The notes below the pieces were generated by a model, which saw nothing but the letters and a program-made list of their open reading frames with translations, was not told the origin of the DNA and did not search any database. 64,000 nucleotides of DNA from a virus. Location: positions 1-64,000 of the IMG/VR virus record IMGVR_UViG_3300001460_006335. One strand, given 5' to 3'. This document shows positions 1,074 to 24,830 of this stretch, piece by piece. The position numbers were made by a program, and so were the translations under genes. Position 1 is the first letter of the stretch. The number at the start of each line of letters is the position of its first letter.

Positions 1074-1766
1074 TCAAGTATGATTCTCTACAAAACTTTC
1101 AAATTGCATATCTAAAACCATTTGCAAAGTATAACGTGGAGCATCTGCATAGTTATTGGCCATATGCCATATGTCTTGATTAAAAGCATACACAGCACCA
1201 AAGTCCCAGTCTTTGACTCCGTATATAAGTCCATCTTCCCAAAGATGCTCTGTGGGTGCATATTCTGCTCCAGGTGTGGGTATAGGACAATACAAGGTCA
1301 TCCAACGCAATGGTGAATCACGATGTGGATACATTGCAGTTAATGGTTTTATCCTTGCAAAGTTTGCTGGATCTTGTGAGGCTGTGCCTACATGATCTTT
1401 TACTATGTTTTCAAACCGATCTATTATAGGATGATCTTTTACATATCTAATGTCAATGTATTTGCCTGGTGGGCCTGATTGTTTTGACCAATCTATTTCT
1501 TCTTCACATATTCTATATAATTCTGCTAGTTCTTTGTCATCAACACGCAACCACGGAAGCTTCTTTACACAATGATCAAATATTTCTTGTGGCCATTCAC
1601 TTTCTGGTATTACTTCACTGCGATCCATTAGCACTTGTTTATCACGCAAACTGTTAAACCAACTGGTAGGAAATTTTCCTGGACCTACTTGATTCATTTT
1701 TCTTTGCCCTTGGAATCTTCCACGGGCTTGCTTTCCTTGCCAGATATTTGTTTCTATATTTTTCAT
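1074..1766 (-). CDS. 2-oxoglutarate/Fe(II) oxygenase-like protein
   Basis: This 230-residue protein has no name I recognise, but its C-terminal half has the residue order of the aspartyl/asparaginyl-hydroxylase-like branch of the cupin-fold dioxygenases: a beta segment ARIKPLTAMYPHRD with HxD at about H148/D150, then a distal His in IWHMANNYADAPRYTLQM (about H201) followed by an Arg (about R211) suited to binding 2-oxoglutarate. The first 100 residues are charged and unassigned. It overlaps the upstream TauD-like gene by 4 bases (ATGA), so the two oxygenase-like proteins are probably made together. The substrate is unknown. Confidence 0.55.
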   Translation of the reverse strand: MKNIETNIWQGKQARGRFQGQRKMNQVGPGKFPTSWFNSLRDKQVLMDRSEVIPESEWPQEIFDHCVKKLPWLRVDDKELAELYRICEEEIDWSKQSGPPGKYIDIRYVKDHPIIDRFENIVKDHVGTASQDPANFARIKPLTAMYPHRDSPLRWMTLYCPIPTPGAEYAPTEHLWEDGLIYGVKDWDFGAVYAFNQDIWHMANNYADAPRYTLQMVLDMQFESFVENHT

Positions 1767-2788
1767 TCTTCTTCCCTTGATAACCTGCCAGGAATAATTA
1801 AATTATTCTTTTGCATCCAAAAATCGTAATTACTAATATTAAATTCAAATCTATTTAACACTCTTACATCAAGTATTTCTTGTTCATGTTGTCCTCTTTG
1901 ATGTAGTGTTAGCAATTGATCCATTAATACTATATCTCCTTCTTCCCACCAATGTACATATTTGTATTCTTCATTAAAATAATGATCATAAACTTTATCC
2001 CAGATATCACCTACGTCACTGAATAGTTTTGCACTGTTCAGTGGATTAAAGAATATACCTTTTACTCCAGCTCGATTGGTTTGTAATAACCATGCTCTAA
2101 ATACACCAGCTCCTAGATTCATAGCTGTTTTTTGAAAATCTTCTATTCCTTCTGCCCATCCGTCTGGTGTTATTCTATATTGTCCATATGCTAAATGTAG
2201 GTCTCTAACAAAGTCAGGATCCATATCTGCTCTGCAACGTGCAGTATTTAAAAATTCAGTTGATGTATTTTTACAGCCTTCCCATCCTTGTAAACTTACT
2301 CCATCTGGAAAACGTATATGATTTAGATTACTATGCCATAATAATTTTCCTTTTCCAAATATACCCGAATGTATGCCGTCCTTATCTTTTTTGCCGGTTA
2401 CCCTTTGTATAGGATAATCGTTGGGCTTATCTTTATAATCTTCTGGCCACGGATAACCAGATGCCCAGTATTCATCTCTACTTGGTAATTCTGATGAAAG
2501 GCCACTGCCTAAAAATTCTATTACCTTTTCGCCAGTGTTGTTCCACCATAAGCTTTTCCAGTTGCCAATACTTTCTTCACTTGCAACACCATTCTTACCC
2601 CATCCTATATTGTGTATTAATCTAGCATGATGATATGTATCTTTTGGCTGATCTTTGAAAACTAAAATTAATTTTTCCATTAACCATTGTCTAATTTGTG
2701 AATAATCATCTACAGTGAGATTGGTAATATCCACATTTTTAACTTGCCATGCATTACCTTGGTCTATTGGTTCTATGTGTATTGTCAT
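1763..2788 (-). CDS. TauD/TfdA-like dioxygenase-fold protein
   Basis: The 341-residue protein follows the TauD/TfdA layout: N-terminal strand and helix with LILVFKDQ (about 40-47), a metal-site segment LLWHSNLNH (about H152), and a distal segment GDIVLMDQLLTLHQRG with His at about 296 followed by an Arg-rich strand (RVLNRFEF). TauD enzymes oxidise small acids such as taurine using Fe(II) and 2-oxoglutarate. The usual HxD metal motif reads H-S-N here, so iron binding may be altered. It lies 27 bases downstream of helicase gene 41 and overlaps the second oxygenase-like gene. I see no promoter in the 27-base gap, so it is probably read from the gp41 message. Confidence 0.65.
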   Translation of the reverse strand: MTIHIEPIDQGNAWQVKNVDITNLTVDDYSQIRQWLMEKLILVFKDQPKDTYHHARLIHNIGWGKNGVASEESIGNWKSLWWNNTGEKVIEFLGSGLSSELPSRDEYWASGYPWPEDYKDKPNDYPIQRVTGKKDKDGIHSGIFGKGKLLWHSNLNHIRFPDGVSLQGWEGCKNTSTEFLNTARCRADMDPDFVRDLHLAYGQYRITPDGWAEGIEDFQKTAMNLGAGVFRAWLLQTNRAGVKGIFFNPLNSAKLFSDVGDIWDKVYDHYFNEEYKYVHWWEEGDIVLMDQLLTLHQRGQHEQEILDVRVLNRFEFNISNYDFWMQKNNLIIPGRLSREEE

Positions 2789-5197: not shown

Positions 5198-6679
5198 TTA
5201 TCTGCATACCTTTACCTTGTAATAGTTTTCAAAATCTTTAGCATCTTGTACAGTATTTACAATAGGTTTACCCTTTATGTTTAAACTAGTGTTTAGTAAC
5301 ATAGGACAACCAGTTTCCTTTTCCCAAAGTTCTAGCAACCTTCTGAAGCCTGGATTATCAGACTTAGATACTGTCTGAACTCTGCTGGTTCCATCGGCAT
5401 GGACGATTGCTGGAAATGCATCAGGTTGTCTACAAGTGGCTGTAAATTGCATATAGGGGCCTGTGGGTCCATCAAAGTAATCTGCAACTCTGTCAGAGAT
5501 AATTGCTGGTGCGAATGGTCTAAATTGCTGTCTATGTTTGATAGCATTAACCCTGTCTTTGACATCCATGCCCCTAGGATCAGCAATAAGGCTACGATTG
5601 CCAAGAGCCCTAGGCCCGAACTCAGCCCTGCCGTTAGCCACGCCAACGATACCTGTCTTTTTAAGTTCCTGTATGATGTTCTCATATGGATAATCTCCTT
5701 CTATGTTGTGGCCAAGAAAAGGTCCGGGCCATTCAATATGTTTATCATAGTGACTTAAAACAGCACCTAATGCACTGCCTGCATCACCCGGGTTAGGCAT
5801 AATCCACACATTATCAAAATAATTGTATGCTTGCGAATTAGCCGAACAGTTTAAAGCACATCCACCCATTACTACTAAGTTCTTACTACTAGTTTTCATT
5901 CTAGCCTGTTTAAGAACGTGATCAAAAATTTCTTCATACACCCGTTGGGTTGATGATGCTATGTCTAAAATATCCTGGGGGCTATTGTATTCTGGTTGCC
6001 ACCATAAGCACCCCCTATGTAAATTTTGTTTAAATTGTATAAGAGGTTTAGTACCCAGGTTATTAATAGTTAGTAAATCATTATGTATACTATCATAAAA
6101 ACGATTAGGGTCTCCATATGCGGCCATACCCATAAGTATATATTCATCTTCTTGTGGTTTTAAAGCTATACGTTGCGTCATAGCCGAATACCAAAGTCCT
6201 ACACTATTCGGATATCCTTGACTATATACACGTTTTAATTTATTACCCTCTGCATTCCAGATACTTAGTGTTTCAAACTCTCCTATACTATCTATACAAA
6301 TTACAGTAGCATCAGTAAAGCCTGATGTATAATAACCGCCAGCACAATGAGCCCTATGATGATCAACAAAATGTACAGGGCACTTAATGTTATAATTGCG
6401 TAGATACTTGCGTATGCGATTTTTCTTAAATGTTTTATAACCTTGTCCTGCATATATTTGTCTTAATGTTTTTTTATATGGATTTTCATACCAAATAACT
6501 TCTTCGGGCTCACCATAATTTAAAGCATCTTTTATTAATGCAGTATTTAAATGTGCATCATTTTTCTTGCCACTATATCGTTCACTATGACTAGCAAACA
6601 ATATTTCTAACCAAGGGTAGTGTTTAAAAACAGCTAGTGATGCATCGTGACTATTGCCACTAATACCCCATGTAATCAT
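5198..6679 (-). CDS. Carbamoyltransferase, NodU/CmcH family
   Basis: This 493-residue protein has the hallmarks of the family: N-terminal Kae1-like domain beginning [13 protein letters not shown], a metal-binding [16 protein letters not shown] segment (about 106-121), glycine-rich [14 protein letters not shown], and a C-terminal YrdC-like lobe with [15 protein letters not shown]. Family members transfer a carbamoyl group from carbamoyl phosphate to a hydroxyl on a sugar or other acceptor through an adenylate intermediate. Length is somewhat below the usual 550-600. The start overlaps the stop of the PRPP synthetase gene (ATGA). The acceptor is not evident; a sugar of the phage-encoded glycan or a modified base are both possible. 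Confidence 0.88.
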
Positions 6680-11858: not shown

Positions 11859-12303
11859 GTTCTTTGGCGAGTTGCTTAATTTCTTTCTTTGTAGATATTC
11901 TAGCAAGTGTTTCTACCTCGTCCATTTTCATATTTGGATATATGTTTGCTAATACTTTTACTGCTTTACTGCTATCGTCTTTTTTCTTTTTCAAGCCAAT
12001 CCATGGATGAAATTTCTTTTTTCCAAAATTGCCTGCTACACATAATAGTTGCCATTGCAATTTTACATGATCTGTTCCGCCTAATACGTTCCAATTTCTA
12101 TTATAATATTCATTAACTTTAAATACAGCTAATTCTTGTTCTTCTCTACTACCTTTGATACTACTAATATAACGGTTTAGATTCCATAAGTCAAGTTTAA
12201 TATCTTTCTTTCCGTCTTCTCCTGCGGCATCATATAATTCTTTAATACCATTATCAATGCTTGGTATTAGCTCTTTGAATAAGTCTAGTTCTTTGTTTGC
12301 CAC
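11833..12303 (-). CDS. Probable clamp-loader small subunit (gp62-like)
   Basis: The 156-residue helical protein begins ELDLFKELIPSID, has FKVNEYYNRNWNVLGG, then LQWQLLCVAGNFGKKKFHPWIGLKKKKDD and a helical end with an A-R-I-S-T-K-K-E repeat. This order (DLF...IPSI; N-Y-N; LQ-x5-G-x-K-F-x-x-W) resembles the short gp62 subunits of marine T4-like phages, which with gp44 load the gp45 clamp. Similarity to T4 gp62 itself is weak and no gp44 or gp45 is in the window. It overlaps KdsB (19 bases) and the zinc-finger gene (26 bases). An unrelated helical replication factor is the alternative. Confidence 0.5.
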   Translation of the reverse strand: MANKELDLFKELIPSIDNGIKELYDAAGEDGKKDIKLDLWNLNRYISSIKGSREEQELAVFKVNEYYNRNWNVLGGTDHVKLQWQLLCVAGNFGKKKFHPWIGLKKKKDDSSKAVKVLANIYPNMKMDEVETLARISTKKEIKQLAKEHGYEKVDI

Positions 12304-12947
12304 TTTTCTAAATCCTCCGGAGTGTTTATTTCAATCCCATCAAATTCTACTTCAACTACACCAATCTTTATACCGTTTTGTATCCAGCGTAACTGTTCTA
12401 ACTTTTCAATATCTTCTTCAGGAAACTTTTTACTTATATTATACATAGCTTTGGATTCTCTATTATAGCCATATATTCCTAAATGATGATCTCCGTAAGT
12501 TAAACTTGCTCGTAAAAACCAGTGTGCTCGTCCTCTGTTATGTATCATTTTAACACAGTTTGGATCATTTCGCAAGTTAAAATCCATCGGTGTATAAGCA
12601 GTTGCTACATCACTACGTTGCAGTTCTCTTTCTACAGCTTTGATAATATCTGTAGTAATATCTGGCATATCCCCTTGTACATTTATATATCTATCATATT
12701 GTAGCTTTTCATCTATAACTTGCATACAACGTTCAGTTCCATTATCTGCATCTGTTGTCATAAGACATTTACCACCCATATGATTAAAAACATCTTGGTG
12801 ATCGGTTAGTACATATGTATCATATCCAGTGCCTGCACATCTATTATAAACGTGTTCAATCAACGGCACTCCATTAAGGTGTGCCATCATTTTTCCTGGG
12901 AATCTTGTGCTTGCATATCTAGCTGGAATTAGTATAGCTGTAGTCAT
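12285..12947 (-). CDS. kdsB: CMP-Kdo synthetase (KdsB)
   Basis: The 220-residue protein is a 3-deoxy-manno-octulosonate cytidylyltransferase, which activates Kdo with CTP for transfer to lipid A or a capsule. Visible motifs: ILIPARYASTRFPGK (5-19; nucleotide-binding loop), YINVQGDMP (about 86-94; NVQGDEP in bacterial enzymes, Glu to Met here), HHLGIYGYNRE, and EQLRWIQNGIKIGVVE, followed by GIEINTPEDLE. It is about 25 residues shorter than bacterial KdsB. The Glu-to-Met change next to the metal-binding Asp should be noted. It overlaps KdsA by 29 bases, so consecutive pathway enzymes are translated together. Confidence 0.88.
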   Translation of the reverse strand: MTTAILIPARYASTRFPGKMMAHLNGVPLIEHVYNRCAGTGYDTYVLTDHQDVFNHMGGKCLMTTDADNGTERCMQVIDEKLQYDRYINVQGDMPDITTDIIKAVERELQRSDVATAYTPMDFNLRNDPNCVKMIHNRGRAHWFLRASLTYGDHHLGIYGYNRESKAMYNISKKFPEEDIEKLEQLRWIQNGIKIGVVEVEFDGIEINTPEDLEKWQTKN

Positions 12948-13698
12948 GTATCTCCTTTACTACTTTTTCAAAGTCATTTAAATTTAACATATTAGGTCCG
13001 TCACTAGGTGCATTATCTGGATCTGGATGTACTTCTAAAAAGAAATTCCTAATACCCAAAGCACTACCTGCCCTACATAAACTAGGAACGTAATTGCGAT
13101 TGCCGCCGCTACTGCCTCCGAGACCGCCTGGCTTCTGTACCGAGTGGGTGGCATCAAGAACCACAGGAGTATCGTAATTACTAAGCATATAGTCCAAGCC
13201 AGTAAAATCAACAACAAGAGTATTATATCCAAAACTTGTTCCTCTCTCTGTTATCCAAACTTCTCTGGCACCTTCTGTCTTTGACAGTATTCCATTCATG
13301 TCCCAGGGTGCAAGGAACTGGCCTTTCTTGATGTTTACAATTTTATCTGTAGCACAAGCCTCTTGTAGTAAATCAGTTTGTCTACATAAGAATGCAGGTA
13401 TCTGTAGCACGTCTACGGCAGTATTGTGGTAGTTTACTATATCTTTAATTTGTTCTACTGTATGAACGTCTGTAAGCGTCTTAGAGCCCACTATACTACG
13501 TATCTCTTGGAAGTCGTGTAGTGTTGTATTAAAGCCTACTCCACGTTTCCCACCTAAACTACTTCTATTAGCTTTATCAAAACTTGCTTTAAAAAAATAT
13601 TCTGCATTATACTTACTACATACATCATTACAATGCTGTGCAATTTCTAAACTTTGTTCTAAGCTTTCGTGCTGGCAAGGGCCTGATATTATTCTCAT
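12919..13698 (-). CDS. kdsA: Kdo-8-phosphate synthase (KdsA), metal-dependent type
   Basis: With the ATG at 13698 (MRIISGPCQHES; TAATG overlap with the previous stop) the enzyme has 259 residues. It condenses phosphoenolpyruvate with arabinose-5-phosphate. Motifs: FFKASFDKANRSS (36-48), DVLQIPAFLCRQTDLL (96-111), NIKKGQFLAPWDM (122-134), ERGTSFGYN (151-159) and LDATHSVQ. The four metal ligands of the Aquifex-type enzyme are all present: C8, H185, E222 and D233, so it belongs to the metal-dependent class rather than the E. coli Asn class. An upstream in-frame ATG would add 15 unrelated residues and is rejected. The Kdo-8-P phosphatase and arabinose-5-P isomerase are not in the window. Confidence 0.92.
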   Translation of the reverse strand: MRIISGPCQHESLEQSLEIAQHCNDVCSKYNAEYFFKASFDKANRSSLGGKRGVGFNTTLHDFQEIRSIVGSKTLTDVHTVEQIKDIVNYHNTAVDVLQIPAFLCRQTDLLQEACATDKIVNIKKGQFLAPWDMNGILSKTEGAREVWITERGTSFGYNTLVVDFTGLDYMLSNYDTPVVLDATHSVQKPGGLGGSSGGNRNYVPSLCRAGSALGIRNFFLEVHPDPDNAPSDGPNMLNLNDFEKVVKEIHDYSYTNSS

Positions 13699-13931
13699 TA
13701 TTTTTGAAATCTTTTCCATGCTGTATGTAACACATAAAACCATACACCATTAATAATAGGTTCAACTAAGGCATCAATTGCCGCAAGTTCAATACTTGCA
13801 CCTGTAATGGTGATTACGCATACAATAGCAATAAACATATGACCTATTGTATAAACGATTGCTAATGTAATACTACTACCACCAATTAGCCATTCTAAAA
13901 GTTTATTTAACATTGAATTTGTTTTTAACAT
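13698..13931 (-). CDS. DUF2061-like small membrane protein
   Basis: The 77-residue protein has two hydrophobic segments (about 18-42, ITLAIVYTIGHMFIAIVCVI, and about 47-66) and ends FYVLHTAWKRFQK. The layout, a basic start, SxT before the first segment, and an E-P-x-x-x-x-x-x-Y-x-x-H-x-x-W ending, resembles DUF2061 proteins, small inner-membrane proteins of unknown function often found near sulfur or glycan genes and in marine phages. Start and stop overlap both neighbours (TAATG on each side), so it is firmly inside the kdsA operon. Confidence 0.65.
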   Translation of the reverse strand: MLKTNSMLNKLLEWLIGGSSITLAIVYTIGHMFIAIVCVITITGASIELAAIDALVEPIINGVWFYVLHTAWKRFQK

Positions 13932-14218
13932 TATTTGTGTTCCTTTATAATATAATATGTTGTTACAAGTTTATCTAACAACTTTTTTAATGTGGGATTT
14001 TGAATTGCAATTTCACATAAGTTTTGCCATTCACTGTAATCTAATAATTCGCCTTGTTCTCTTGCTACTGCGGCAGGGTCTCCTCCTATTATCCATCTTG
14101 GAATTTTATTATGCGGTGGATCTCTATAATTAGCGTATATTACACCATTTGCTCTAGTATATATTAAAGCCTCGCCTTCTATTAACTTTACTCCTGCCTT
14201 TATTCTTTGATTTATCAT
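13931..14218 (-). CDS. Conserved-type phage hypothetical protein (95 aa)
   Basis: I do not recognise a named family. The protein reads as a small alpha/beta domain: a beta start (INQRIKAGVKLIEGEALIYTRANGVIYANYRD), a PP-x-N-K-I-P-R-W-I-I-G-G-D turn, then two helices (YSEWQNLCEIAIQ and LKKLLDKLVTTYYII). Short proteins of this style, with Y-A-x-Y-R-D-P, are common unnamed genes in T4-like marine phages. It overlaps the GAPDH stop at its start (ATGA) and the next ATG at its end (TAATG), so it is certainly translated as part of the operon. Confidence 0.7.
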   Translation of the reverse strand: MINQRIKAGVKLIEGEALIYTRANGVIYANYRDPPHNKIPRWIIGGDPAAVAREQGELLDYSEWQNLCEIAIQNPTLKKLLDKLVTTYYIIKEHK

Positions 14219-15174
14219 AAGCTACCTATATAATTTCCAACATCGGCCATCCTACACGAAAAAGCCCATTCATTATCATACCATGCGAGTATTCTTACTA
14301 AATGGTTATCTGAAACTCTTGTTTGTTCTGGAGCAAATATTGCACTCTCTCTTGTAGTATTAAAATCAATACTTACACAAGGATCTTCTTCATAACCAAT
14401 TATATCTTTCATATCGTTTTCTGAACTAAGTTTAAAAATAGTATTAATAGTATCACTATCTACTTCACGCCCTACTTGCACAGTCAAATCAACACAACTT
14501 ACATTAGGTGTTGGAACACGTATCGAACTTCCTTTTATTTTACCAGCAAGTTTAGGATATACTATATCTAATGCTTTAGCGGCTCCTGTGCTAGTTGGTA
14601 TCATATTTGCACCTGCGGCTCTAGCACGATATGGATCTTTATGGCGTTTATCTATTGTACTTTGGTCACCAGTATAACTATGTATTGTTGTCATTTGACC
14701 AGAAATAATATGAACTGTTTCGTCTAAGACTTTAACAAGAGGTGCTAAACAATTTGTTGTACAACTAGCATTGCTTACTATATAATCGCTACTGCCTATA
14801 TCTTTATGATTAACTCCGTATACAACTGTTTTGTCTACATTCTTTGCTGGGCTACTAATAACTACTTTTCCTGCACCCCCTGATACATGATGCATACAAA
14901 CATCGCCATCTCTAAACGCACCAGTGCATTCAAATACAATATCAACATTAAACCATCTTATTTTGCTTATATCACGTTCTTGTGTCCACAGTATAGGATC
15001 TTGTATTGGCCCTGTGTATCGTCCATGTACACTATCATATTTTAACAAATGCAAGTTCGTTTCTTGCCCACCTGTTGCATTAATTTGTACAAGTTCCATA
15101 TCACTGCGTTCGCTCATAATATGTCTTGCTAAACACCTTCCAATTCGGCCAAATCCATTTATACCTACTTTCAT
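14215..15174 (-). CDS. gap: Glyceraldehyde-3-phosphate dehydrogenase
   Basis: The 319-residue protein is a full GAPDH, which oxidatively phosphorylates glyceraldehyde-3-phosphate (or the reverse) using NAD(P). Seen: Rossmann start VGINGFGRIGR, LLKYDSVHGRY, VISSPAKN, the catalytic SNASCTTNC (C138), TTIHSYTGDQ (H165), RARAAGANMIPTSTGAAKA and the C-terminal WYDNEW. The residue after Asn32 at the cofactor ribose pocket is Ala33 followed by Thr, where NAD-specific enzymes have Asp, so NADP use is possible. It is slightly short (usual 330-335), with trimmed loops. It overlaps both neighbours. With the aldolase and PRPP synthetase it suggests redirected triose-phosphate metabolism. Confidence 0.95.
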   Translation of the reverse strand: MKVGINGFGRIGRCLARHIMSERSDMELVQINATGGQETNLHLLKYDSVHGRYTGPIQDPILWTQERDISKIRWFNVDIVFECTGAFRDGDVCMHHVSGGAGKVVISSPAKNVDKTVVYGVNHKDIGSSDYIVSNASCTTNCLAPLVKVLDETVHIISGQMTTIHSYTGDQSTIDKRHKDPYRARAAGANMIPTSTGAAKALDIVYPKLAGKIKGSSIRVPTPNVSCVDLTVQVGREVDSDTINTIFKLSSENDMKDIIGYEEDPCVSIDFNTTRESAIFAPEQTRVSDNHLVRILAWYDNEWAFSCRMADVGNYIGSL

Positions 15175-15365
15175 TTTTTGTCTCTCAATTTCATATGTTG
15201 TTTAGTGAACCATACAGGAACTCCAGGATTTAAGTCAATTAGTTCTTGCTCTGTATATGTTTCTGGAAGTCTAACACCATGCTTTTTGAATTGTTCATAA
15301 AATATATCAGCAATTTCATCTTTGTCTTTGTTTCTATATGGAGAATTTTTAGTCCAGTTTTTCAT
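15171..15365 (-). CDS. Small charged protein (64 aa)
   Basis: A short hydrophilic protein, MKNWTKNSPYRNKDKDEIADIFYEQFKKHGV and so on, with one likely amphipathic helix (DEIADIFYEQFKKHG), then PETYTEQELIDLNPGVPVWFTKQHMKLRDKK. I do not recognise a family. It is retained because its stop overlaps the GAPDH start (ATGA), and its start lies 4 bases after the methyltransferase stop, the same compact packing as all neighbours. Composition matches adjacent genes. Confidence 0.62.
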   Translation of the reverse strand: MKNWTKNSPYRNKDKDEIADIFYEQFKKHGVRLPETYTEQELIDLNPGVPVWFTKQHMKLRDKK

Positions 15366-15369
15366 TAAA

Positions 15370-15918
15370 TTATTCCGCTTTATTTCTTAATAAGACAATG
15401 TATTTTATAACATTAAGATTAAATTTTTCTCTATAATTTTCTTTTATTTTTTCACTAACTATTTCCCAATTATATTTTTGAATTTTATTTTTCCACCACT
15501 CCGGAGATTCAACAATCAAGTGTGCATTCCTTCCATCTGATAATAATTTTTTTGCAGGATGACACGCTATTAAATGATACTGATACTTTTTGGTTATACT
15601 AAACAATGTATCTAATGTTTGATCTATGTGTGCAGGTTCAACGTGTTCTAGTACATCACTACTATAGGTAATATCAACTTCTGTTGGTAATTGTATAGGC
15701 GAAGTAACTGGGTCATATGTATAAAGATTAATATTAGGATATGTATTTTTTATCCATTCGGATGTATATCCTTTACCACTACCAAAGTCTAAAATAGACT
15801 TTGTATCATTATTAATTAAATCTACTACATCCTTAGGTAATCCTTTACCGCTACCAAAAGATGAAGTACTATGTAGTTTTTTAAGTTGTTCTAAGTATTC
15901 AGTTGAAAGTTTTGTCAT
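15370..15918 (-). CDS. Class I SAM-dependent methyltransferase-like protein
   Basis: The 182-residue protein has the Rossmann methyltransferase signature: motif I ILDFGSGKGYTSEWI (about 40-54), a motif II-like acidic segment LYTYDPVTSP (about 62-71), and VDITYSSDVLEHVEP (about 77-91), where SSDVLEHV is typical of small-molecule or sugar methyltransferases (Methyltransf_11 type). It ends with a helical basic segment. The target is unknown; the adjacent cupin and Kdo genes suggest a sugar. It overlaps the cupin gene by 4 bases. Confidence 0.78.
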   Translation of the reverse strand: MTKLSTEYLEQLKKLHSTSSFGSGKGLPKDVVDLINNDTKSILDFGSGKGYTSEWIKNTYPNINLYTYDPVTSPIQLPTEVDITYSSDVLEHVEPAHIDQTLDTLFSITKKYQYHLIACHPAKKLLSDGRNAHLIVESPEWWKNKIQKYNWEIVSEKIKENYREKFNLNVIKYIVLLRNKAE

Positions 15919-16259
15919 ACATTTGATCCGGCGGTCCTTCTTACAATATCATCGTGATTAAATTCAGCCCAATATAATTCAAATGCAACGCCGTCTTCTA
16001 GTCCTTCAAATTGATGTATTTTACCCGGCTTTACTTGTGTAAACTGTCCACCGGTAAGAATTGTTTCGTCGACAAGTCCTTGATCTTCTTGCCAAACTCT
16101 GACAATCATTTTGCCTGACTCAACAAAGAATCCATTCCATTTAAATTTATGCTCATGCTCAGAACATTTGAATCCTGCTTTGTATTCAATACGATGAAAT
16201 TCAAGCACACCGTTTGCGTGGATTAATTCAGTTTGTCCCCAAATTTTTCCTGCCTTCAT
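15915..16259 (-). CDS. Cupin-domain protein
   Basis: This 114-residue single-domain cupin has the two conserved blocks: GFKCSEHEHKFKWNGFFVESGKMIV (about 29-53; HxH metal pair, with E/G/G positions) and QVKPGKIHQFEGLEDGVAFELYW (about 76-98; PGxxHxF). The family resembles mannose-6-phosphate isomerase-like or dTDP-sugar epimerase-like small cupins that act on sugar phosphates or sense metabolites. It overlaps the small membrane gene at its start (ATGA) and the methyltransferase at its end. A role in glycan precursor metabolism is inferred from neighbours only. Confidence 0.78.
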   Translation of the reverse strand: MKAGKIWGQTELIHANGVLEFHRIEYKAGFKCSEHEHKFKWNGFFVESGKMIVRVWQEDQGLVDETILTGGQFTQVKPGKIHQFEGLEDGVAFELYWAEFNHDDIVRRTAGSNV

Positions 16260-16408
16260 TCGCTCATCTCCTTTAGCATAGTGTTTATATCTTCGATCTT
16301 ACTTTCCATATTATCTAGTCTATTTTCAAGTTGATCAGTTGCAATATAACCAAGTACACCTGCAACAACTAGCATTGACCAAAAAATTATTCCTAAATAT
16401 TTGTTCAT
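16256..16408 (-). CDS. Small membrane protein with coiled-coil tail (50 aa)
   Basis: A short gene with a textbook ribosome site (GGAGAAAAGATA before the ATG). The product begins MNKYLGIIFWSMLVVAGVLG, a single transmembrane segment, followed by a heptad-like helix with LENRLDNMESKIEDINTM and ends KEMSE. Its TGA overlaps the ATG of the cupin gene. Topology is probably N-in with a cytoplasmic or periplasmic coiled coil. Spanin, holin accessory or membrane anchor roles are possible; nothing in the sequence decides. Confidence 0.75.
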   Translation of the reverse strand: MNKYLGIIFWSMLVVAGVLGYIATDQLENRLDNMESKIEDINTMLKEMSE

Positions 16409-16419
16409 TATCTTTTCTC

Positions 16420-16926
16420 CTATAATAATTTACCATAATCTATAACTTCACTTTGCCTGTTAATGTCTTTTACAAAAAATGCACAATCAGGATTGTTTCC
16501 TGTAGTTATAGGAATACTTAGTAATTGTCCAGTTTTTATTTTTGGAAAATACCATTTCACATCATTATAAAAACTTGTAATTTCTATTTTGCCAAATTTA
16601 GGTTTGCTTCCTGTAAGAGGATTAAACAAGTAAGCTTCGAAGCCACGTTGATTAAGACTTGTTAATGGAAGGACTTCTAAATCACTTCCTGATTGACTAC
16701 ATCCAACTGCTACACACCAATCTAATGGCATAGTAACAGACTGTCCGTCAATATCTAAAACTACTGCTGGCGCACTGAAGCTTTCTAAAAAAATCAATGG
16801 TATAAAAAAGAAATCCGGATCTTGCGGATTACTATTATCTAAAACACTAAATCTTAAAGAATCATCAACTTCGTCAGGTATAGTAGTTAAATTAAAACTC
16901 TGGTTCTCGAGCGTGAGTATATTCAT
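16420..16926 (-). CDS. Hypothetical protein downstream of uvsW (168 aa)
   Basis: The ATG at 16926 (TAATG overlap with the uvsW stop) gives MNILTLENQSFNLTTIPDE and 168 residues. The protein is beta-rich: FFFIPLIFLESFSAPAVVLDIDGQSVTMPLDWCVAVGC, then FEAYLFNPLTGSKPKFGKIEI and DVKWYFPKIKTGQLLSIPI. It contains no motif I recognise. The pattern of short beta strands and a conserved-looking PLDWC turn occurs in unnamed proteins that follow uvsW in marine T4-like phages. It probably shares the uvsW message; a start three codons earlier is less likely. Confidence 0.65.
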   Translation of the reverse strand: MNILTLENQSFNLTTIPDEVDDSLRFSVLDNSNPQDPDFFFIPLIFLESFSAPAVVLDIDGQSVTMPLDWCVAVGCSQSGSDLEVLPLTSLNQRGFEAYLFNPLTGSKPKFGKIEITSFYNDVKWYFPKIKTGQLLSIPITTGNNPDCAFFVKDINRQSEVIDYGKLL

Positions 16927-18389
16927 TATTTCCAATCTACCTTTTCAATGGTGAATGGGTACTGCGCCTCTTTGTAAAACTTTTTACGTTGAGTTAGATG
17001 CCGCTTCGCAAACTTACACGTTGATGTAAGATCCCATATCTGAACGAAGTCTTTGTCTTTTGCCTTTCTTACGCCTCTACCAATTGATTGAATCACACGA
17101 ACAAATGACTTGCCAGGCTCAATAAGTACAAGATTAAATATCCTAGGAATATTGATGCCAACGGATGCAACGCCATACGTTGCAATAACAACATGGTTAG
17201 TCCCTTGATTAATTTCGTCATATGCTTCTTTTCTATCTTTTAATTTAACATCGCCTTTAACAAATGTACTATTAGGTATAAGTGTTTGTAATTGTTCACC
17301 AGCACTTATTCGGTCTACTAGTATTAATGTATTGCCTGCTTCTCTTACTGTGTTTAATAATTTGCCTAAATATTCTATTCTATCTTGATTTGTTACAAGA
17401 TATTTTAATTCTTCTTGATAATTACTGTGTACTTGGGTATCAAGTAGCTGTACAATGTTTACGTGACACTGAGCAAGTACACCTTTGTCTTGTAGTTCCT
17501 TTGCACTAATTTCTCCAATAACTGGACCTAAACTAGCGTGTATACTTTCAAATTCAAACTTTTCTTTTGGTATTGTACCAGTAAGTCCCCAACGTATTGG
17601 AGCATTTTTTAGATTGCGTGTAAGCAAATTTTTAAGTACTTCTGCCTTTGCTTGATGTACTTCGTCAACAATTACAGTTGTTACTCCATCCAAAAATTCT
17701 GCAAGACTTAAAACTGCATCACCGTCTTTATGTTTTTTATCTAATATATTTAAACTTTGCCAGGTACAAATTGTATGTGTTTTTCCTAGTTCTTTTCTAT
17801 CTCCAAAATAAACACCAACGTCTAATCCGCAATTTATATAATCTTCTTCAGTTTGTACAACAAGACTTTTGTTTGGTACAACAACAATACTTCTTCCGTA
17901 CTTTTCTCCAAGATGACTAAGTGTTGCAGTAGTTATAGTTTTACCTGCTCCGGTAGCAATTTGTTGCAAGCTTTGTGGTGCTTGTAAAAAATTATTAACT
18001 GCTTCTACTTGATAATCACGCAGAATTACATCTTCACCTTCTGCAGGATGACCTTGTGGCCATACAACACCTTGGTCGGCCCAGTAGCGTTCTGTAACAG
18101 GAGTAAAGTTCAATTTAATTGGATGCCGCCTATCGTCTATATCAACTATTTGTACTTTGTTTTTTGCTAATACATCTGTGATAGTATCAAGATGATTTAC
18201 ATAACCTGTACCACCAATACCAAAAAATGCAACCTTACCATCCCAACGTCCTAATTTATATTGAGGCATATACCTAGCATAAGGCACCTCAAACTTAAGA
18301 CTATTTGCTAACTTTCTTCGTACGTCAACATCAAGTCCTTCAAGTTTAATGTTTACCTCGTCCTCTATTATAAGTTTACAAGTTGCCAA
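16926..18389 (-). CDS. uvsW: UvsW-type superfamily 2 helicase
   Basis: The 487-residue protein matches T4 UvsW, the RNA-DNA and branched-DNA helicase that removes R-loops and drives fork regression, switching origin-dependent to recombination-dependent replication. An N-terminal alpha/beta substrate-grip domain (1-120; MPQYKLGRWDGKVAFF) precedes the motor: Walker A QIATGAGKT (143-151), Walker B IVDEVHQ (about 239-245), GLTGTIPKEKFE, and a helicase C domain with IATYGVASVGINIPR and QSIGRGVRKAKDKD. Length matches T4 (about 500). It overlaps the upstream 413-aa gene by 22 bases and is read from the promoter at 19615-19643. Confidence 0.93.
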   Translation of the reverse strand: MATCKLIIEDEVNIKLEGLDVDVRRKLANSLKFEVPYARYMPQYKLGRWDGKVAFFGIGGTGYVNHLDTITDVLAKNKVQIVDIDDRRHPIKLNFTPVTERYWADQGVVWPQGHPAEGEDVILRDYQVEAVNNFLQAPQSLQQIATGAGKTITTATLSHLGEKYGRSIVVVPNKSLVVQTEEDYINCGLDVGVYFGDRKELGKTHTICTWQSLNILDKKHKDGDAVLSLAEFLDGVTTVIVDEVHQAKAEVLKNLLTRNLKNAPIRWGLTGTIPKEKFEFESIHASLGPVIGEISAKELQDKGVLAQCHVNIVQLLDTQVHSNYQEELKYLVTNQDRIEYLGKLLNTVREAGNTLILVDRISAGEQLQTLIPNSTFVKGDVKLKDRKEAYDEINQGTNHVVIATYGVASVGINIPRIFNLVLIEPGKSFVRVIQSIGRGVRKAKDKDFVQIWDLTSTCKFAKRHLTQRKKFYKEAQYPFTIEKVDWK

Positions 18390-19609
18390 GAATTGAATCC
18401 TTTATTATAAGTTTGTTTAAAGTTACTTAAATCTGTATCATTGTATGCTATCAAATCACAATTAAAAGTAATGTAGCTAGTAACTAATCTACTAGGTCGA
18501 AGACTTGATTTACAAAATGCAGTTGTTGGTTTAAACGAACTTTTCAATAAAACTTTAGGTAGTTTATCTTTTTTAATATACACTATTTTTGTTTTATTGT
18601 CTACCCAGTTATTTAACTTTTTATCTTTTACAAATTCATTTAACTGAACATTTGTTTTATCTGAACTTTCAATTCGAAACAAAATGCTTTGTAACTCATT
18701 AGGTACGTATTTTGAAAATCCGTTATATAATTCTTGTAGCTGAAAGTAAGAATCATCTTTATCTAAGCAAACAATTATTGGATATCTATTGAGATGATCA
18801 AATACATCGGCAATGTTATATATAGTATATTTGTTTTGATCTGCTAATACTGCTGGTTCTTTTCTATAAGCAATCTTATCTAACAGTGTATCTATTTTTT
18901 TATTATTGTTTAAAAAGAAGCCATATTTAATTGACTTATCTGCTATCGATTTTTCGTCAGATAGTTTTTGTACAATATCGGTAACATTTGGTGATATGTT
19001 AAAAAATTTATTATCTTTATAATAAGGTATGTAATTATTTTTGTTGTTGATAATATCTTCAACTTTTTTAGCAGTATCTATAATAACTTTATCTGTATTC
19101 CATGTAGGAAAATTATCAACTAAATTATAACATATTTTTGAATCAAACAAAAAATAATGCTCGTGTGAATTTTTTTCATGAAAGTATTCATTTCTTTTTG
19201 TTTTTAGTAAACAGCTTTCTAATTTAGAAATATGTTTTTTATTAAATGGAAATCTTACTTTTATATAATCTCCATCTTTAAGTGTAAGATACGATCTATC
19301 ATGTCCAATAATTTTTGATTTATCTACAACAGTAATATACTTACTACGGTCAATTTCTCTAAACGGACTTCTTGTTGTTTCAAGAGAATATTGCCAGTTT
19401 CTAATTTCATATTTTATAAATTGATTTTTATAAATTTGTAATTTTGTTTTTAATAAATTATGTTGCCTATCAGTTAACGCAACACCTTTGTTTATTTGTC
19501 TATCAAAACTATTTAATAAAGTAAGATCAGCATTTTTTAAAACAAACTCATGATTGTGTTTGCCCAGAACTACTTGTAACAAATCTTCTATGTTTTCTGT
19601 ACTTGTCAT
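18368..19609 (-). CDS. Hypothetical protein preceding uvsW (413 aa)
   Basis: I do not recognise this protein. It is very rich in Lys, Asn, Asp and Ile. A helical N-terminus (IEDLLQVVLGKHNHEFVLKNADLTLLNSFDRQ) is followed by a basic domain with short strands and, near the end, FKPTTAFCKSSLRPSRLVTSYITFNCDLIAYND. No nucleotide-binding loop is present. It sits directly ahead of uvsW with a 22-base overlap, so a recombination or repair role is plausible by context. There is no Shine-Dalgarno; a perfect sigma-70 promoter ends 5 bases before the ATG, making a leaderless message likely. The next in-frame Met is too far downstream to be the true start. Confidence 0.65.
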   Translation of the reverse strand: MTSTENIEDLLQVVLGKHNHEFVLKNADLTLLNSFDRQINKGVALTDRQHNLLKTKLQIYKNQFIKYEIRNWQYSLETTRSPFREIDRSKYITVVDKSKIIGHDRSYLTLKDGDYIKVRFPFNKKHISKLESCLLKTKRNEYFHEKNSHEHYFLFDSKICYNLVDNFPTWNTDKVIIDTAKKVEDIINNKNNYIPYYKDNKFFNISPNVTDIVQKLSDEKSIADKSIKYGFFLNNNKKIDTLLDKIAYRKEPAVLADQNKYTIYNIADVFDHLNRYPIIVCLDKDDSYFQLQELYNGFSKYVPNELQSILFRIESSDKTNVQLNEFVKDKKLNNWVDNKTKIVYIKKDKLPKVLLKSSFKPTTAFCKSSLRPSRLVTSYITFNCDLIAYNDTDLSNFKQTYNKGFNSWQLVNL

Positions 19610-19614
19610 AGTTT

Positions 19615-19643
19615 ATTATAACAAACTATATATAGTTTGTCAA
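19615..19643 (-). promoter_or_regulatory. Consensus sigma-70 promoter for the uvsW operon
   Basis: Minus strand: TTGACA (19643-19638), 17-base spacer, TATAAT (19620-19615), then AAACT and ATG. Both boxes are exact consensus. The -35 lies inside the last codons of the upstream glycosyltransferase gene, and the predicted +1 is at the start codon. Confidence 0.82.
19621..19640. repeat. 20-bp perfect palindrome in promoter spacer
   Basis: ACAAACTATATATAGTTTGT is a perfect palindrome that fills the spacer between the -35 and -10 boxes of the uvsW-operon promoter and slightly overlaps the -35. Position and symmetry suggest an operator for a dimeric regulator. A hairpin role for the upstream gene's 3' end is less likely, as no T-run follows. 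Confidence 0.65.
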
Positions 19644-20477
19644 TCTTTTCAAGGGAATGCCTTTACTTATTTCTTCTTCAGTAAATTCTGTCCATGCATA
19701 ATCATTTAACCATTGTTGTCTTTCTGGTTTATTTGGATTGTTGATTGTTTTTAAGCCTGTGTTAGAAACCGGCCATGCTAAACTACTTGGACCAGTAAAT
19801 GCAGGAATACCATTAATAACAGCTTGTATTCCAGGATTACTACTCCAGTTTATAACAGCATAACTGTCTTTAAAACTAAGATTAAAGTCGTCATATGTTC
19901 CGTTTACTTTTTGCGGCGCATCAGTATATACATTTGTATATTGATTTTCAAGTGCTTCTAATAAACATCTTGGATGCGGTCTAAATACAATTGATAAGTC
20001 TGTATACAGTTTTATTTCGTCTATTATACTTGTTACCCATTTACTCATTTTTGGCATATTTTGCCATTGTAAACTTTTTTCATGTTGACCACATATTAAT
20101 ATATGATCTCCTGCTTTACGCCAAGGTTTTAAAGATAACCCAAGGCTATTAGCACGATCAGCATTGTTACCCATAGTGCCAAACTGTGCGTCACGATTGA
20201 TTCCATTAAGTCCTACCTTCCATGTTATTCCTCTTTTTATACTGCCTACTTCTAATACAATAACCGGCTTTTTGCGTTTTTGACAACTGGTCCAAATATG
20301 TTTATTACTAGCCATTCGCCCGTTAAAAAGCACACTCCAAATAACATGAACATCGGAATTGTTAATATTAGTATCATTACTAATAGTATGCCCATTACTA
20401 ATACAAGAATGTTCGAAAGCATCAAAAATAGTACGGGAATTGTTCGCTCCATATTCTCTCCATAATCTGAATTTCAT
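19626..20477 (-). CDS. GT-B-like glycosyltransferase/glycan protein
   Basis: Starting at the ATG at 20477 (MKFRLWREYG), the protein has 283 residues; earlier in-frame starts would run into the divergent gene. The segment GDHILICGQHEKSLQW, then IKLYTDLSIVFRPHPR, then YAVINWSSNPGIQAVINGIPAFTGPSSLAWPV resembles the C-terminal donor-binding half of GT-B enzymes such as capsular or CDP-glycerol-type transferases. The same order appears in the two other local proteins at 21348-22289 and 22286-24052, so the three are paralogous. Its role is probably glycan assembly or modification. A GTTAAATA late-type box lies 21 bases upstream. Confidence 0.6.
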   Translation of the reverse strand: MKFRLWREYGANNSRTIFDAFEHSCISNGHTISNDTNINNSDVHVIWSVLFNGRMASNKHIWTSCQKRKKPVIVLEVGSIKRGITWKVGLNGINRDAQFGTMGNNADRANSLGLSLKPWRKAGDHILICGQHEKSLQWQNMPKMSKWVTSIIDEIKLYTDLSIVFRPHPRCLLEALENQYTNVYTDAPQKVNGTYDDFNLSFKDSYAVINWSSNPGIQAVINGIPAFTGPSSLAWPVSNTGLKTINNPNKPERQQWLNDYAWTEFTEEEISKGIPLKRLTNYI

Positions 20478-20478
20478 A

Positions 20479-20505
20479 AGTAAATACTCCAGTACACTAT
20501 TTAAC
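20479..20505. promoter_or_regulatory. Divergent late promoter pair
   Basis: In the 40-base gap between divergent glycosyltransferase genes, the plus strand has AGTAAATACTCC (20479-20490), close to the T4 late consensus TATAAATACTCC, 27 bases before the ATG at 20518. The minus strand has GTTAAATA (20505-20498), 20 bases before the ATG at 20477, with GGAG between. Both are single-mismatch type boxes. Confidence 0.5.
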
Positions 20506-20517
20506 AAGGGAAACAAA

Positions 20518-21360
20518 ATGTCAGCAATAACTGTGGTAACAACATTCAATAAACAAGGAATGGATTTATACGGACAGAGATTTATCGAATCGTTTGAAGA
20601 AAATGTTGACGAATCTATCAAGTTATTTGTGTATGCAGAAGATTGCTTTCCGGCTATTGTAGGAAGACATCGTGTTTTTGAACTTCAGACAAGACAACTA
20701 TTACCTAAACTTATGGAGTTCAAAAAACGCTGGAAAGATGTTCCAAAAGCAAATGGCATTCCGCCAGACGATATTAAAGCTCGTAGACCTCGAGATCATC
20801 ATAAAGAATTTAAATGGAATGCTGTACGCTTTGCTAATAAAGTTTATGCAGTATTAGATGCATTTGAACGAAGTACAGATTGGTGTGTATGGATGGACGC
20901 AGATACATTTGTTCATAGCAATTGGTCACAAAAGCAATTTGAATCTTTACTACCAAATGATAAATGGTTAACTTATGTGGGCAGGGGTAAAGGATCACAA
21001 ACATGGCCAGAGTGCGGATTCTACGGTATGAATAAAAATCATTCAATGTGTGTACAGTTCTTAAAAGAATTTGAAAGATTTTATGAAGACGCTGAGAATG
21101 GAATTTTTAAATTAGAAGAATGGCATGATAGTTATGTATTTGGACATATATTAAACATAATGAAAGCTACTGATAATAATGTATTGGATTATAGTGCAGA
21201 AATGTATTTAAAAGAAGCTAAAACCGGAGGCGGTGGCCATCCGTTAATTAATACTGAATTAGGAAAATATATTGATCATATGAAGGGCGATAGAAAAAAT
21301 ACAGGTAAAAGTTTACAAAAAGATTTAATGGTTAATCGCAAAGAAAACTACTGGCAGTAG
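20518..21360 (+). CDS. GT-A-like glycosyltransferase (280 aa)
   Basis: The start ATG at 20518 has AAGGG upstream and gives MSAITVVTTFNKQGMDLYG. Around residues 121-131, DWCVWMDADTFV, is a DxD metal motif (D127, D129) typical of nucleotide-sugar-dependent GT-A enzymes. A Trp/His-rich acceptor region (WHDSYVFGHIL) and a basic C-terminus (DRKNTGKSLQKDLM) follow. It probably transfers a sugar to the phage-directed glycan. It is the only plus-strand gene of the glycan island and its 3' end overlaps the convergent gene by 13 bases. Upstream in-frame extension is antisense to the neighbour and rejected. Confidence 0.72.
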   Translation: MSAITVVTTFNKQGMDLYGQRFIESFEENVDESIKLFVYAEDCFPAIVGRHRVFELQTRQLLPKLMEFKKRWKDVPKANGIPPDDIKARRPRDHHKEFKWNAVRFANKVYAVLDAFERSTDWCVWMDADTFVHSNWSQKQFESLLPNDKWLTYVGRGKGSQTWPECGFYGMNKNHSMCVQFLKEFERFYEDAENGIFKLEEWHDSYVFGHILNIMKATDNNVLDYSAEMYLKEAKTGGGGHPLINTELGKYIDHMKGDRKNTGKSLQKDLMVNRKENYWQ

Positions 21361-22289
21361 TTCCTTATATGGTTCCAACATTCGCCACTTTCTAATTCTT
21401 GAAAATTCCAATGAAACATACTTATACGCCTAAGCCATTTTAATCTATCAAATTCTTTAGGGTTATCAATATCTAATATACTATGATTACTTACTTCTGC
21501 ACATTGACTTTTTGTAGGATCAGTAGTAAAAGCATGATAGCCTTGTATAATTGGTCCAACAATTCCGCTACTATTTTTGTTTACTACTGCATAACAATTT
21601 TGTAAATCGTTTTGTAACCAGTTGTTTGGATCCACAACTTCAACTTTTTTCAAGTGCCTAAACGGGTTACTCTTTTGCTCTATAAAAAAGTTACGTGATT
21701 GTTTACAGCCTGGATGAGCTCTTATTTTTATTCTTCTTTTACAACCAGCACTCCTAATTTTTTCTATTGTGCTAATAGTCCAGTCAATTACACTTTCTCC
21801 GCTCATACTCCAACCACCTTGCCTTTGTAATAGTAGTAAAATATGATCGCCATCTTTTTTATAATCTTGTAATTGTAGTCCGCTATTGATTGATATTTTA
21901 TTCCATCTTTGTTCGTCTATAATATCATCGCAATATATTCCTGTGTTAGGAAAAACTCCGTTCAAACTATAACGCAAATATCCATGTCTATTTTTCTTGT
22001 CAGCATATAAAAATAGATTTGCATCTGCAACTATAGTATGTTTATTATTTTTAATTTGATGATTAATTACTTTTTTTCTTAATTGTAAATGGCTAGGATT
22101 TACATCTGAATATACCCACCCTTGTATTACAGCGGCATCACAATCTATAGGGTGATAATCTCTATGTAGCGTTGCACTATCACCAGTACGTAAAACACCA
22201 TTATAAAACTTAATTAGCAGTTCTTCTTTTTGGACATTAGTATTACCTCTTGGAACACTAGTTAAATAACTTACAACAGTTTTCTTCAT
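21348..22289 (-). CDS. GT-B-like glycan protein, paralogue of neighbours
   Basis: The 313-residue protein has a basic start (MKKTVVSYLTSVPRGN), a middle with YCDDIIDEQRWNKISINSG and DGDHILLLLQRQGGWSM, then RRIKIRAHPGCKQSR, and CYAVVNKNSSGIVGPIIQGYHAFTTDPTKS. The last two blocks correspond to the FRPHPR and YAVINWSSNPGIQAVINGIPAFTG blocks of the gene at 19626-20477. Proteins of this type accompany capsule or LPS genes and may be glycosyltransferases or polysaccharide-export related; no DxD or HxGH motif is seen. It overlaps the bifunctional transferase gene by 4 bases. Confidence 0.58.
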   Translation of the reverse strand: MKKTVVSYLTSVPRGNTNVQKEELLIKFYNGVLRTGDSATLHRDYHPIDCDAAVIQGWVYSDVNPSHLQLRKKVINHQIKNNKHTIVADANLFLYADKKNRHGYLRYSLNGVFPNTGIYCDDIIDEQRWNKISINSGLQLQDYKKDGDHILLLLQRQGGWSMSGESVIDWTISTIEKIRSAGCKRRIKIRAHPGCKQSRNFFIEQKSNPFRHLKKVEVVDPNNWLQNDLQNCYAVVNKNSSGIVGPIIQGYHAFTTDPTKSQCAEVSNHSILDIDNPKEFDRLKWLRRISMFHWNFQELESGECWNHIRNYCQ

Positions 22290-24052: not shown

Positions 24053-24830
24053 TGTCTTTCTCCGTTAATTTATCAGTTGGTCCTTTCCACACTTCGACTA
24101 TGTGTGCAGGCTTATCAGTATCATTACAACCTTGATGCCATATTCCTACAGGAATATCTACAGGATTATTTGGATGTAAATTCCAAATTGAACAACCGTC
24201 AAATGGATTGTCTGATAGTGTTACATTCGTTTTAACATATGCTTCACCAGAAACAATATTCCATGTTTCACTTCTATACTTATGTCTTTGCATACTTAAT
24301 TTACTCTTTGGTGAAATAACTAATTCTTTTACTTGAAAGCCTTCGCCCTGATATAATTCTCTATAATGCCCCCATTCACGTTCTACTTTTGGTGCCCGCC
24401 ATTCTTTTAATATCCAACTGCTAGAATTTTTCTTGTCCTCACCTCCAATACCAAATACAAATTCTACACCAGGATGATTACCGTACACTTCCATTTCAGG
24501 AATGTTTACATCAGTTCTGTCTCCGCCATTGGCAAAAATAATTTTTCCACTTTCAGTTGACATTGTATTAAAAATAGCATGAGACGCAGTATTATCATCA
24601 TCGTTAAAACTAATAACTTTATCTACAACAGAAAGTCCTTTAATTATTTCTACTCTTTCTTGTAGCGGCATAAATGGTTTACCTTTTTTTCTAGTTAACC
24701 ATTCATCAGAGTTAACACCAACAATTAATCTATTACCTAAGTTTTTAGCCGCTTTGAAATATGCAAGATGCCCTGAATGTATTGGATCAAAGCCGCCAGT
24801 GACTAAAACTGTTTTATTGTTACCAGCCAA
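24027..24830 (-). CDS. Cytidylyltransferase-cupin fusion
   Basis: Residues 1-130 are a cytidylyltransferase-like nucleotidyltransferase: VLVTGGFDPIHSGHLAYF (HxGH at 18-21), GVNSDEWLTRKKGKPFM and FANGGDRT, as in TagD or RfaE2 enzymes. Residues 155-267 are a cupin like the C-terminal part of ManC and type II phosphomannose isomerases: FQVKELVISPKSKLSMQRHKYRSETWNIVSGEAYV and VDIPVGIWHQGCN. The fusion suggests making and perhaps isomerising or sensing one activated sugar. It overlaps the FkbM gene by 11 bases and the two-domain transferase by 26 bases. Confidence 0.8.
   Translation of the reverse strand: MAGNNKTVLVTGGFDPIHSGHLAYFKAAKNLGNRLIVGVNSDEWLTRKKGKPFMPLQERVEIIKGLSVVDKVISFNDDDNTASHAIFNTMSTESGKIIFANGGDRTDVNIPEMEVYGNHPGVEFVFGIGGEDKKNSSSWILKEWRAPKVEREWGHYRELYQGEGFQVKELVISPKSKLSMQRHKYRSETWNIVSGEAYVKTNVTLSDNPFDGCSIWNLHPNNPVDIPVGIWHQGCNDTDKPAHIVEVWKGPTDKLTEKDIERADYRN

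Follow-up and report, generated by a model that had tools for sequence, protein, structure and literature searches.

A viral family of TauD-fold proteins carries asparagine at the position of the iron-binding carboxylate

The stretch of DNA analysed here (the window) is the 64,000 nucleotides at positions 1 to 64,000 of the IMG/VR virus record IMGVR_UViG_3300001460_006335, a portion of a record of 82,223 bases. Two of its genes overlap by four bases (ATGA): P0001, which encodes a protein resembling the TauD-fold oxygenases that depend on 2-oxoglutarate (2OG), and P0002, which encodes a second oxygenase-like protein (Table 1). P0001 matches the Pfam family TauD/TfdA (PF02668) with an E value of 1.4e-12 and 48.5 bits, above the cut-off of 27, which was also exceeded by all seven of the relatives tested, and it matches PHROG 24590, 'taurine catabolism dioxygenase', with an E value of 7e-13. 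Where the canonical site of two histidines and one carboxylate has HxD/E, however, P0001 reads H-S-N. In our family profile alignments, 'LWHSN' stands opposite 'LWHSD' of AAD-2 (5bke) and 'WHSN' opposite 'WHTD' of Escherichia coli TauD (1gqw), and N154 falls in the D/E column when P0001 is aligned with bacterial TauD proteins; these alignments showed no alternative HxD at the metal site. Both the distal His and the 2OG-binding Arg of the canonical site are retained in P0001 and its family. A sequence-only reading of this stretch had proposed a TauD-like protein with H-S-N at about residues 152-154 in place of HxD, and had named a real HxD elsewhere, or frequent loss of the distal His, as grounds for dropping the idea; the profile match, the predicted fold and the alignments bear the proposal out, and H296 is kept.

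Table 1. Features of the window discussed in the text (residue numbers are those of the protein named)
Feature	Coordinates	Strand	Basis or remarks
P0001, TauD-fold 2OG-oxygenase-like protein with HxN	1763..2788	-	341 residues; ATG start
P0001 H152-S153-N154, first metal His and Asn at the iron-carboxylate position	2327..2335	-	alignments; family conservation
P0001 T177, opposite Thr of the canonical GDT motif	2258..2260	-	invariant in a 34-row alignment (0 Mosig-type rows)
P0001 H296, distal metal His	1901..1903	-	19/19 family rows; 10/10 canonical rows
P0001 R298, distal His+2	1895..1897	-	Arg in 19/19 family rows; 9 Ala and 1 Pro in 10 canonical rows
P0001 R309, equivalent of the 2OG-binding Arg	1862..1864	-	17/17 family rows with letters
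P0001 R313, aligned to Arg of TauD residue 270	1850..1852	-	17/17 family rows with letters; 1gqw alignment
P0002, Asp_Arg_Hydrox-like, second oxygenase-like protein	1074..1766	-	230 residues; HxD...H...R
P0002 H148-R149-D150	1317..1325	-	HxD of the HxD...H...R pattern
Small CxxC protein	643-954	other strand	adjoins both oxygenase genes
Carbamoyltransferase	5198-6679		PF02543, PF16861
Sugar/lipopolysaccharide biosynthesis-like genes	12285-27075		by eye
GAPDH-like gene	14215-15174		by eye
Large terminase	32088-33674		

An AlphaFold2 model of P0001 (mean pLDDT 74, pTM 0.78) has the TauD-type double-stranded beta-helix fold, and TauD, AtsK, AAD-1/2, ScoE and Rv0097 were among the best matches of the model in Foldseek and VIA-align, with Z of about 25 for TauD, AtsK and ScoE and a maximum of 25.7. 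Identity to the solved TauDs is 12-16%, and likeness of a predicted fold is in itself no demonstration of function. With the members of PF02668 (E. coli TauD, AtsK, AAD-2/TfdA, ScoE, CarC), the viral protein shares the profile match, the predicted fold, the order of the two histidines and the C-terminal pair of arginines. It departs from them at the metal, where they carry Asp or Glu and the viral family carries Asn.

The asparagine is a property of the family rather than of one protein. Relatives were collected in two scans of IMG/VR, the first with five seed proteins (291 relatives) and the second led by the protein of the Pelagibacter phage Mosig (318 relatives), and the best 80 of each were read. 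One of the two search motifs of the first scan fixed W-H-S and left the next residue free, while the other lies elsewhere in the protein. WHSN was present in all of the best 80 of the 291 relatives, and LGWHSN in all of the best 80 of the 318, as well as at loci L003 and L087. Loci of the Mosig type also hold 26 paralogous genes, of which 23 have Asn (mostly as His-Ala-Asn) and three have Asp. When distinct sequences were counted over the segment that begins at the motif and ends at the distal His, with IMG/VR, the named phages and the window included and one fragment lacking the distal region (L117) excluded, Asn was found in 142 and Asp in three of 145 family sequences: Asn in 64/64 main-clade and window sequences, 56/56 Mosig-type sequences and 22/25 paralogues, with Asp in the other 3/25. 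Clustering at 90% identity reduced the 145 to 86 groups (84 Asn, 2 Asp). Row L245, which has a chance WH upstream of the true motif, is HSN. The sequence-only reading had suggested conservation of Asn in relatives as a check; its observation on the single protein stood, but it had missed both that Asn is the rule of a whole viral family and that an Arg two residues beyond the distal His accompanies it throughout.

Among the 64 main-clade and window sequences, Asn is encoded by AAT in 36 cases and by AAC in the other 28, and both kinds of Ser codon occur ahead of it, so the codons have drifted while the residue has remained constant. A DNA pattern for GELLWHS followed by Asn found 44 stretches in IMG/VR, all 44 of them genuine members, whereas the same pattern followed by Asp found 10, all in short frames of 23-70 residues and none in a TauD gene. 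(A near-identical 26-codon stretch with GELLWHSD, in a short frame that is no TauD gene, occurs on seven viral contigs: L095, L096, L097, L098, L100, L102 and L104.) The unusual asparagine is real and widespread in the viral contigs searched.

Several loci hold more than one copy of the gene. At L068:3871-6059, the HSN gene is tandemly duplicated, with copies reading GELGWHSN and GELLWHSN. A second TauD paralogue with WHAN is present at L184, L189, L192, L194, L196, L200-L202, L204, L215, L244, L247, L248, L252, L258 and L259, and the HxD paralogues at L253, L255 and L262 (HSD/HTD) have close HxN counterparts at L190, L213, L224, L248 and L256 (HSN/HTN).

Ordinary TauDs gave a different picture. 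Among bacterial PF02668 loci from one phylum (that of one centre genome), Asp or Glu was found in 43/43 readable cases and Asn in 0/43. These 43, which include some close pairs and for which the metal motif was picked by eye from printed matches, are 28 loci (29 minus L294, which has no open reading frame) plus 15 (18 minus L160 and L172, which lack the motif region, and L167, which is the L086 gene). A scan of viruses with an alignment of ordinary TauDs returned nine relatives, all HxD (L181 included), against the 291 and 318 of the two family scans; the latter sets overlap and the search patterns differ, so that these figures are no census. A single pattern-limited scan of 84,980 genomes gave only two matches, L086 and L087, both HSN. 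The first, from Methylocucumis oryzae, is the sole copy on a contig of a named bacterial isolate and is broken over three frames; its neighbours are a radical-SAM gene (Pfam, below cut-off) and, by eye, ketosynthase-like and carrier-protein-like genes. The second lies on a contig of a metagenome-assembled genome with a phage-like appearance. Within the range that these searches covered, the family is essentially viral. In Prochlorococcus phage MED4-213 (HQ634174.1 / NC_020845.1), a match at 111605-112671 falls in two pieces across two to three annotated genes, and the gene may be split. The large terminase of the window is nearest to that of the PA5oct group of Pseudomonas jumbo phages (53% identity), and the virus is therefore not closely related to the cyanophages.

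The rest of the active site has been kept. Over the 19 Asn rows of three clades, 19 positions are at least 90% conserved, among them W151, H152, S153, N154, D290, H296, R298, R309 and R313. By analogy with TauD, R309 would be the 2OG-binding Arg and R313 an Arg for an anionic substrate; T177, which presumably contacts 2OG, is absent from the positions conserved over all clades. Arg298 is a further family-wide residue, at a position where the bacterial TauDs compared have Ala or Pro; its equivalent is also present in the 12 rows of paralogues, those with Asp among them. Residues 294-298 form one strand in the model, so H296 and R298 should share one face. No new family-wide acid was found to replace the missing carboxylate: D285 and D290, although conserved, are also present in 5/10 and 10/10 ordinary rows, respectively. 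Just before the distal His, the family has DN-S or DQ where ordinary TauDs have WDNR. For three pairs of genes, the ratio of nonsynonymous to synonymous divergence (dN/dS) lies far below 1: about 0.15 for the window and L001 (dN 0.239, dS 1.54), about 0.15 for cyanophages P-HM1 and P-HM2 (0.185, 1.24) and about 0.08 for Mosig and L087 (0.188, 2.35), although the dS values are high and rough.

One explanation for such a pattern is a pseudoenzyme, in which the fold and 2OG pocket would be kept for binding, as a sensor of 2OG or another metabolite or as a scaffold for the neighbouring oxygenase, with no redox catalysis. It has in its favour that the sole carboxylate ligand is gone in 142/145 sequences and that engineered loss of this ligand inactivates TauD and prolyl 4-hydroxylase (P4H) (PMC2767507). 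We nevertheless consider it unlikely. Few positions are conserved from clade to clade, and both histidines, both arginines and the S-N pair belong to them, where a pseudoenzyme would be expected to show some loss or variation of metal ligands. The reappearance of Asp at L253, L255 and L262 is most easily understood if the site still binds iron.

Phylogenetic analysis placed the asparagine proteins together. In a first tree, which compared 19 Asn rows with 10 Asp rows from ordinary TauDs, the Asn rows formed one side of a branch with support 100/98, which was unchanged when the HSN columns were left out and stood at 100/99 without two long Asp rows. Three deep branches were found within the family: the window protein with L001; Mosig (pelagiphage-like) with L087; and a main clade of cyanophage and other viral or freshwater-type sequences. 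The path from the window gene to the nearest main-clade rows spans about 4.6-5.1 changes per column in this tree and 3.6-4.0 in the second, and Asn is common to both ends. The second tree, of 32 rows (nine rows omitted, 12/26 paralogues used), again recovered the viral family (100/99), with the three Asp paralogues grouped inside it (96/100). On this tree, the Asn/Asp label requires two changes, and a single clade of all Asp rows was rejected by the approximately unbiased test (p-AU 0.0027). The three Asp members branch from within the Asn paralogues, which suggests a reversion to Asp; with the root placed among ordinary TauDs, the simplest reading of the trees would be a single change from Asp to Asn at the base of the family followed by one return to Asp. 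The deep branching order is less certain than the grouping, long branches being present.

The gene, which is carried by viruses of aquatic bacteria, already has a name and a proposed role: it is usually labelled as a taurine-degrading enzyme. The annotation in P-HM1 and P-HM2 is taurine catabolism dioxygenase, that in Mosig a putative enzyme of the same type, and Sullivan et al. (2010; PMC3037559) list the corresponding cyanophage cluster, T4-GC447, among the genes common only to P-HM1 and P-HM2. Viral tauD has been read as an auxiliary metabolic gene for sulfur (PMC9469726, PMC8940887). In the excerpts of these three papers, the gene is listed or the metabolism of sulfur or 2OG is discussed, with no mention of the iron motif, and we found no paper on an HxN motif, a 2-His-1-Asn site or a TauD D101N variant in the open-licence PMC literature. 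An ordinary taurine or sulfonate dioxygenase acting under sulfur starvation, in which Asn is tolerated or deamidated to Asp, would agree with these annotations and with the retention of R313. We regard this as very unlikely: the defining metal carboxylate is missing in 142/145 sequences, identity to solved TauDs is low, as given above, and the residue after Asn varies (Leu in the window and L001, Glu in 79 other first-scan loci, Gly in the Mosig sequences shown), which leaves no general deamidation motif.

Loss of the iron carboxylate also recalls the 2OG halogenases (SyrB2, CytC3, BesD, WelO5), and the sequence-only reading had drawn this analogy. Halogenases with Gly at the carboxylate position are known. 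Human AspH, which belongs to PF05118 (the Pfam family of P0002) and not to the TauD family, is a natural 2OG hydroxylase without an iron carboxylate. Ala at the carboxylate position of halogenases is described in PMC2767507, and AspH carries water on the iron (PMC13168262). A halogenase-like enzyme, with a halide on iron recruited by the lost negative charge and by Arg298, could draw on the net change of about +2 in charge that we expect near the metal, and AspH shows that two-His iron sites can work (PMC10947486, PMC13168262). It is, however, highly improbable here, and the analogy found no specific support: known halogenases make room for the halide with Gly or Ala, whereas Asn is isosteric with Asp and just as large; Gly or Ala was found in 0/145 sequences; and in AspH, a two-His site alone gives no halogenation, according to the excerpts of those papers.

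The neighbouring genes offer some indication of context. P0002 barely reaches the cut-off for PF05118 (Asp_Arg_Hydrox), with 23 bits against 22.6. The earlier description of it as an overlapping second oxygenase-like gene with HxD...H...R holds, with the ATGA overlap, H148 and D150, H201 and R211. Relatives of P0002 were found neither in the phage collection, nor in a pattern-limited scan of viral contigs, nor in the L001 record, and it shows weak similarity to PF05118 proteins of Mosig-type loci (pairwise E values of 0.004 and 8e-4). Because PF05118 genes are common in these phages (20/34 records), the position of one beside P0001 is weak evidence of partnership; a partnership of the two proteins, on one substrate as the sequence-only reading had suggested, is plausible but unproven.

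Mosig-type loci have a more regular arrangement. Of 56 distinct genes, 54 overlap the next gene (with starts taken from the longest reading frame), and within five genes on the same strand, a methyltransferase cluster is found at 54, a PF05118-type gene at 50, an aminotransferase-like gene at 43, a desaturase at 32, an acetyltransferase-like (GNAT-like) gene at 31 and a redoxin at 24. These clusters were named after the Pfam match of one representative; for the aminotransferase-like and acetyltransferase-like clusters, that match comes from L087 members only, at or below threshold, and two other representatives had none, while Mosig's own genes are annotated as putative aminotransferase and N-acetyltransferase. 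An operon of desaturase-, aminotransferase-, TauD-, acetyltransferase- and PF05118-like genes plus a methyltransferase is seen in L183-L262 and L003, and often lies immediately upstream of probable tail-fibre genes (annotated so in Mosig). At least two TauD-like genes are present in 38/82 Mosig-type loci. The Asp paralogues (L253, L255, L262) lie in operons of this type too, and each has an Asn copy next to it, which suggests that the Asn and Asp forms do related jobs.

Neighbours elsewhere are mixed. Main-clade genes lie near radical-SAM proteins, tail-fibre-like genes (by eye) and, in some cases, a desaturase, and L015 has a Flavodoxin_2 and S-adenosylhomocysteine hydrolase pair. Three candidate partners were set aside. 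The idea of a carrier-protein partner arose from the carrier- and ketosynthase-like neighbours of L086 and from the acyl carrier protein (ACP) of P-HM1 and P-HM2, but it fails as a general rule: PF00550 is present in 4/49 records, and the P-HM1 ACP lies about 16 kb from the TauD gene. The ACP and two asparaginyl hydroxylases also belong to the gene set shared only by P-HM1 and P-HM2 (PMC3037559), and a survey of pelagimyophages mentions, for the freshwater members, fabF, a desaturase and a protein of the 2OG oxygenase family (PMC7029224). A desaturase was likewise rejected as a constant partner, as PF00487 occurs in 7/34 records and regularly in the Mosig-type clade only. A GNAT partner across clades was dropped too, the main-clade neighbour family c2 having shown no link to the Mosig acetyltransferase (hhalign p 0.15).

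Other parts of the window are of interest in their own right. The small CxxC protein encoded beside the two oxygenase genes matches PHROGs without an assigned function. We take it to resemble the C-terminal domain of NifU. The carbamoyltransferase gene lies beside a gene that by eye is like phosphoribosyl pyrophosphate synthetase, and a similar carbamoyltransferase gene, in the same blastp cluster, is found in L001. The sugar/lipopolysaccharide biosynthesis-like genes include a KDO (3-deoxy-D-manno-octulosonic acid)-type synthase, a CMP-KDO-type transferase, nucleotidyltransferases and glycosyltransferases.

Taken together, these data lead us to favour, with moderate confidence, a viral subfamily of TauD-fold Fe(II)/2OG enzymes with a putative 2-His-1-Asn metal site, acting on an anionic substrate and distinct from taurine dioxygenase. 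As the iron-binding acid is replaced by Asn and the rest of the active site is kept, the chemistry is probably unlike that of the enzyme after which the gene is named; the earlier suggestion that Asn could weaken iron binding or change the type of reaction could well be right. If the root lies among ordinary TauDs, the iron-binding Asp would have changed to Asn once, early, and been kept in nearly all descendants. Two His and the Asn would hold Fe(II), the Asn acting either by its amide oxygen or by way of a water molecule that it keeps in place, and 2OG would bind as in TauD. The lost negative charge and the gained Arg298 near the metal may be offset by the anion of the substrate (a carboxylate, sulfonate or phosphate), which would be anchored by Arg313 and perhaps also by Arg298. 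A small anionic metabolite or side chain would then be oxidised, this oxidation being one reaction in a short modification pathway that operates while the virus infects its host. For phages of the Mosig type, the remaining reactions would probably be methyl transfer, hydroxylation of the PF05118 type, amino transfer and acyl transfer; the most likely partner in the window would be the PF05118-like gene that overlaps P0001. Iron binding without the carboxylate is possible, as the D101A variant of TauD still bound iron, if less well, and was rescued by formate (PMC2767507).

A number of observations weigh against this subfamily of 2-His-1-Asn enzymes. Engineered removal of the carboxylate usually abolishes the activity of 2OG hydroxylases: TauD D101A and P4H D414A/G no longer hydroxylated, and P4H accepted no replacement for Asp other than Glu (PMC2767507), Asn not being among the ligand variants described in the excerpts of that paper. 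Three family members carry Asp, so Asn is dispensable in some lineages. In the profile alignment, an Arg of CarC stands opposite Arg298, and the Asp paralogues retain theirs, which makes this residue a family trait not strictly tied to Asn. The AlphaFold2 model was built without metal. The operon is seen only in the Mosig-type clade, the counts of partners come without a matched control, and the scarcity of carrier-protein and desaturase genes argues that there is no constant pathway.

A stronger version of the proposal, which we advance only tentatively, holds that this virus-specific lineage is old, large and active, with Asn as a third iron ligand and with Arg298 drawing in a substrate anion that makes up the missing charge. 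The electron-poorer iron-oxo species might then favour an outcome other than hydroxylation, such as desaturation, cyclisation or anion transfer.

In 2OG enzymes, the third protein ligand is considered difficult to replace: it is Asp or Glu in most hydroxylases and absent in halogenases and AspH. The viral Asn lineage and its close Asp paralogues make the role of this ligand testable on natural proteins, and if active 2-His-1-Asn enzymes do exist, the Asp-reverted paralogues in the same operons would be natural controls. Viral tauD has been reported as a sulfur gene, in one study as the most abundant detected (PMC8940887, PMC9469726). The viral gene is probably misnamed as a taurine-degrading enzyme, and if the tauD genes counted mostly belong to the Asn family, then such counts of sulfur genes are based on an enzyme without the metal site of taurine dioxygenase.

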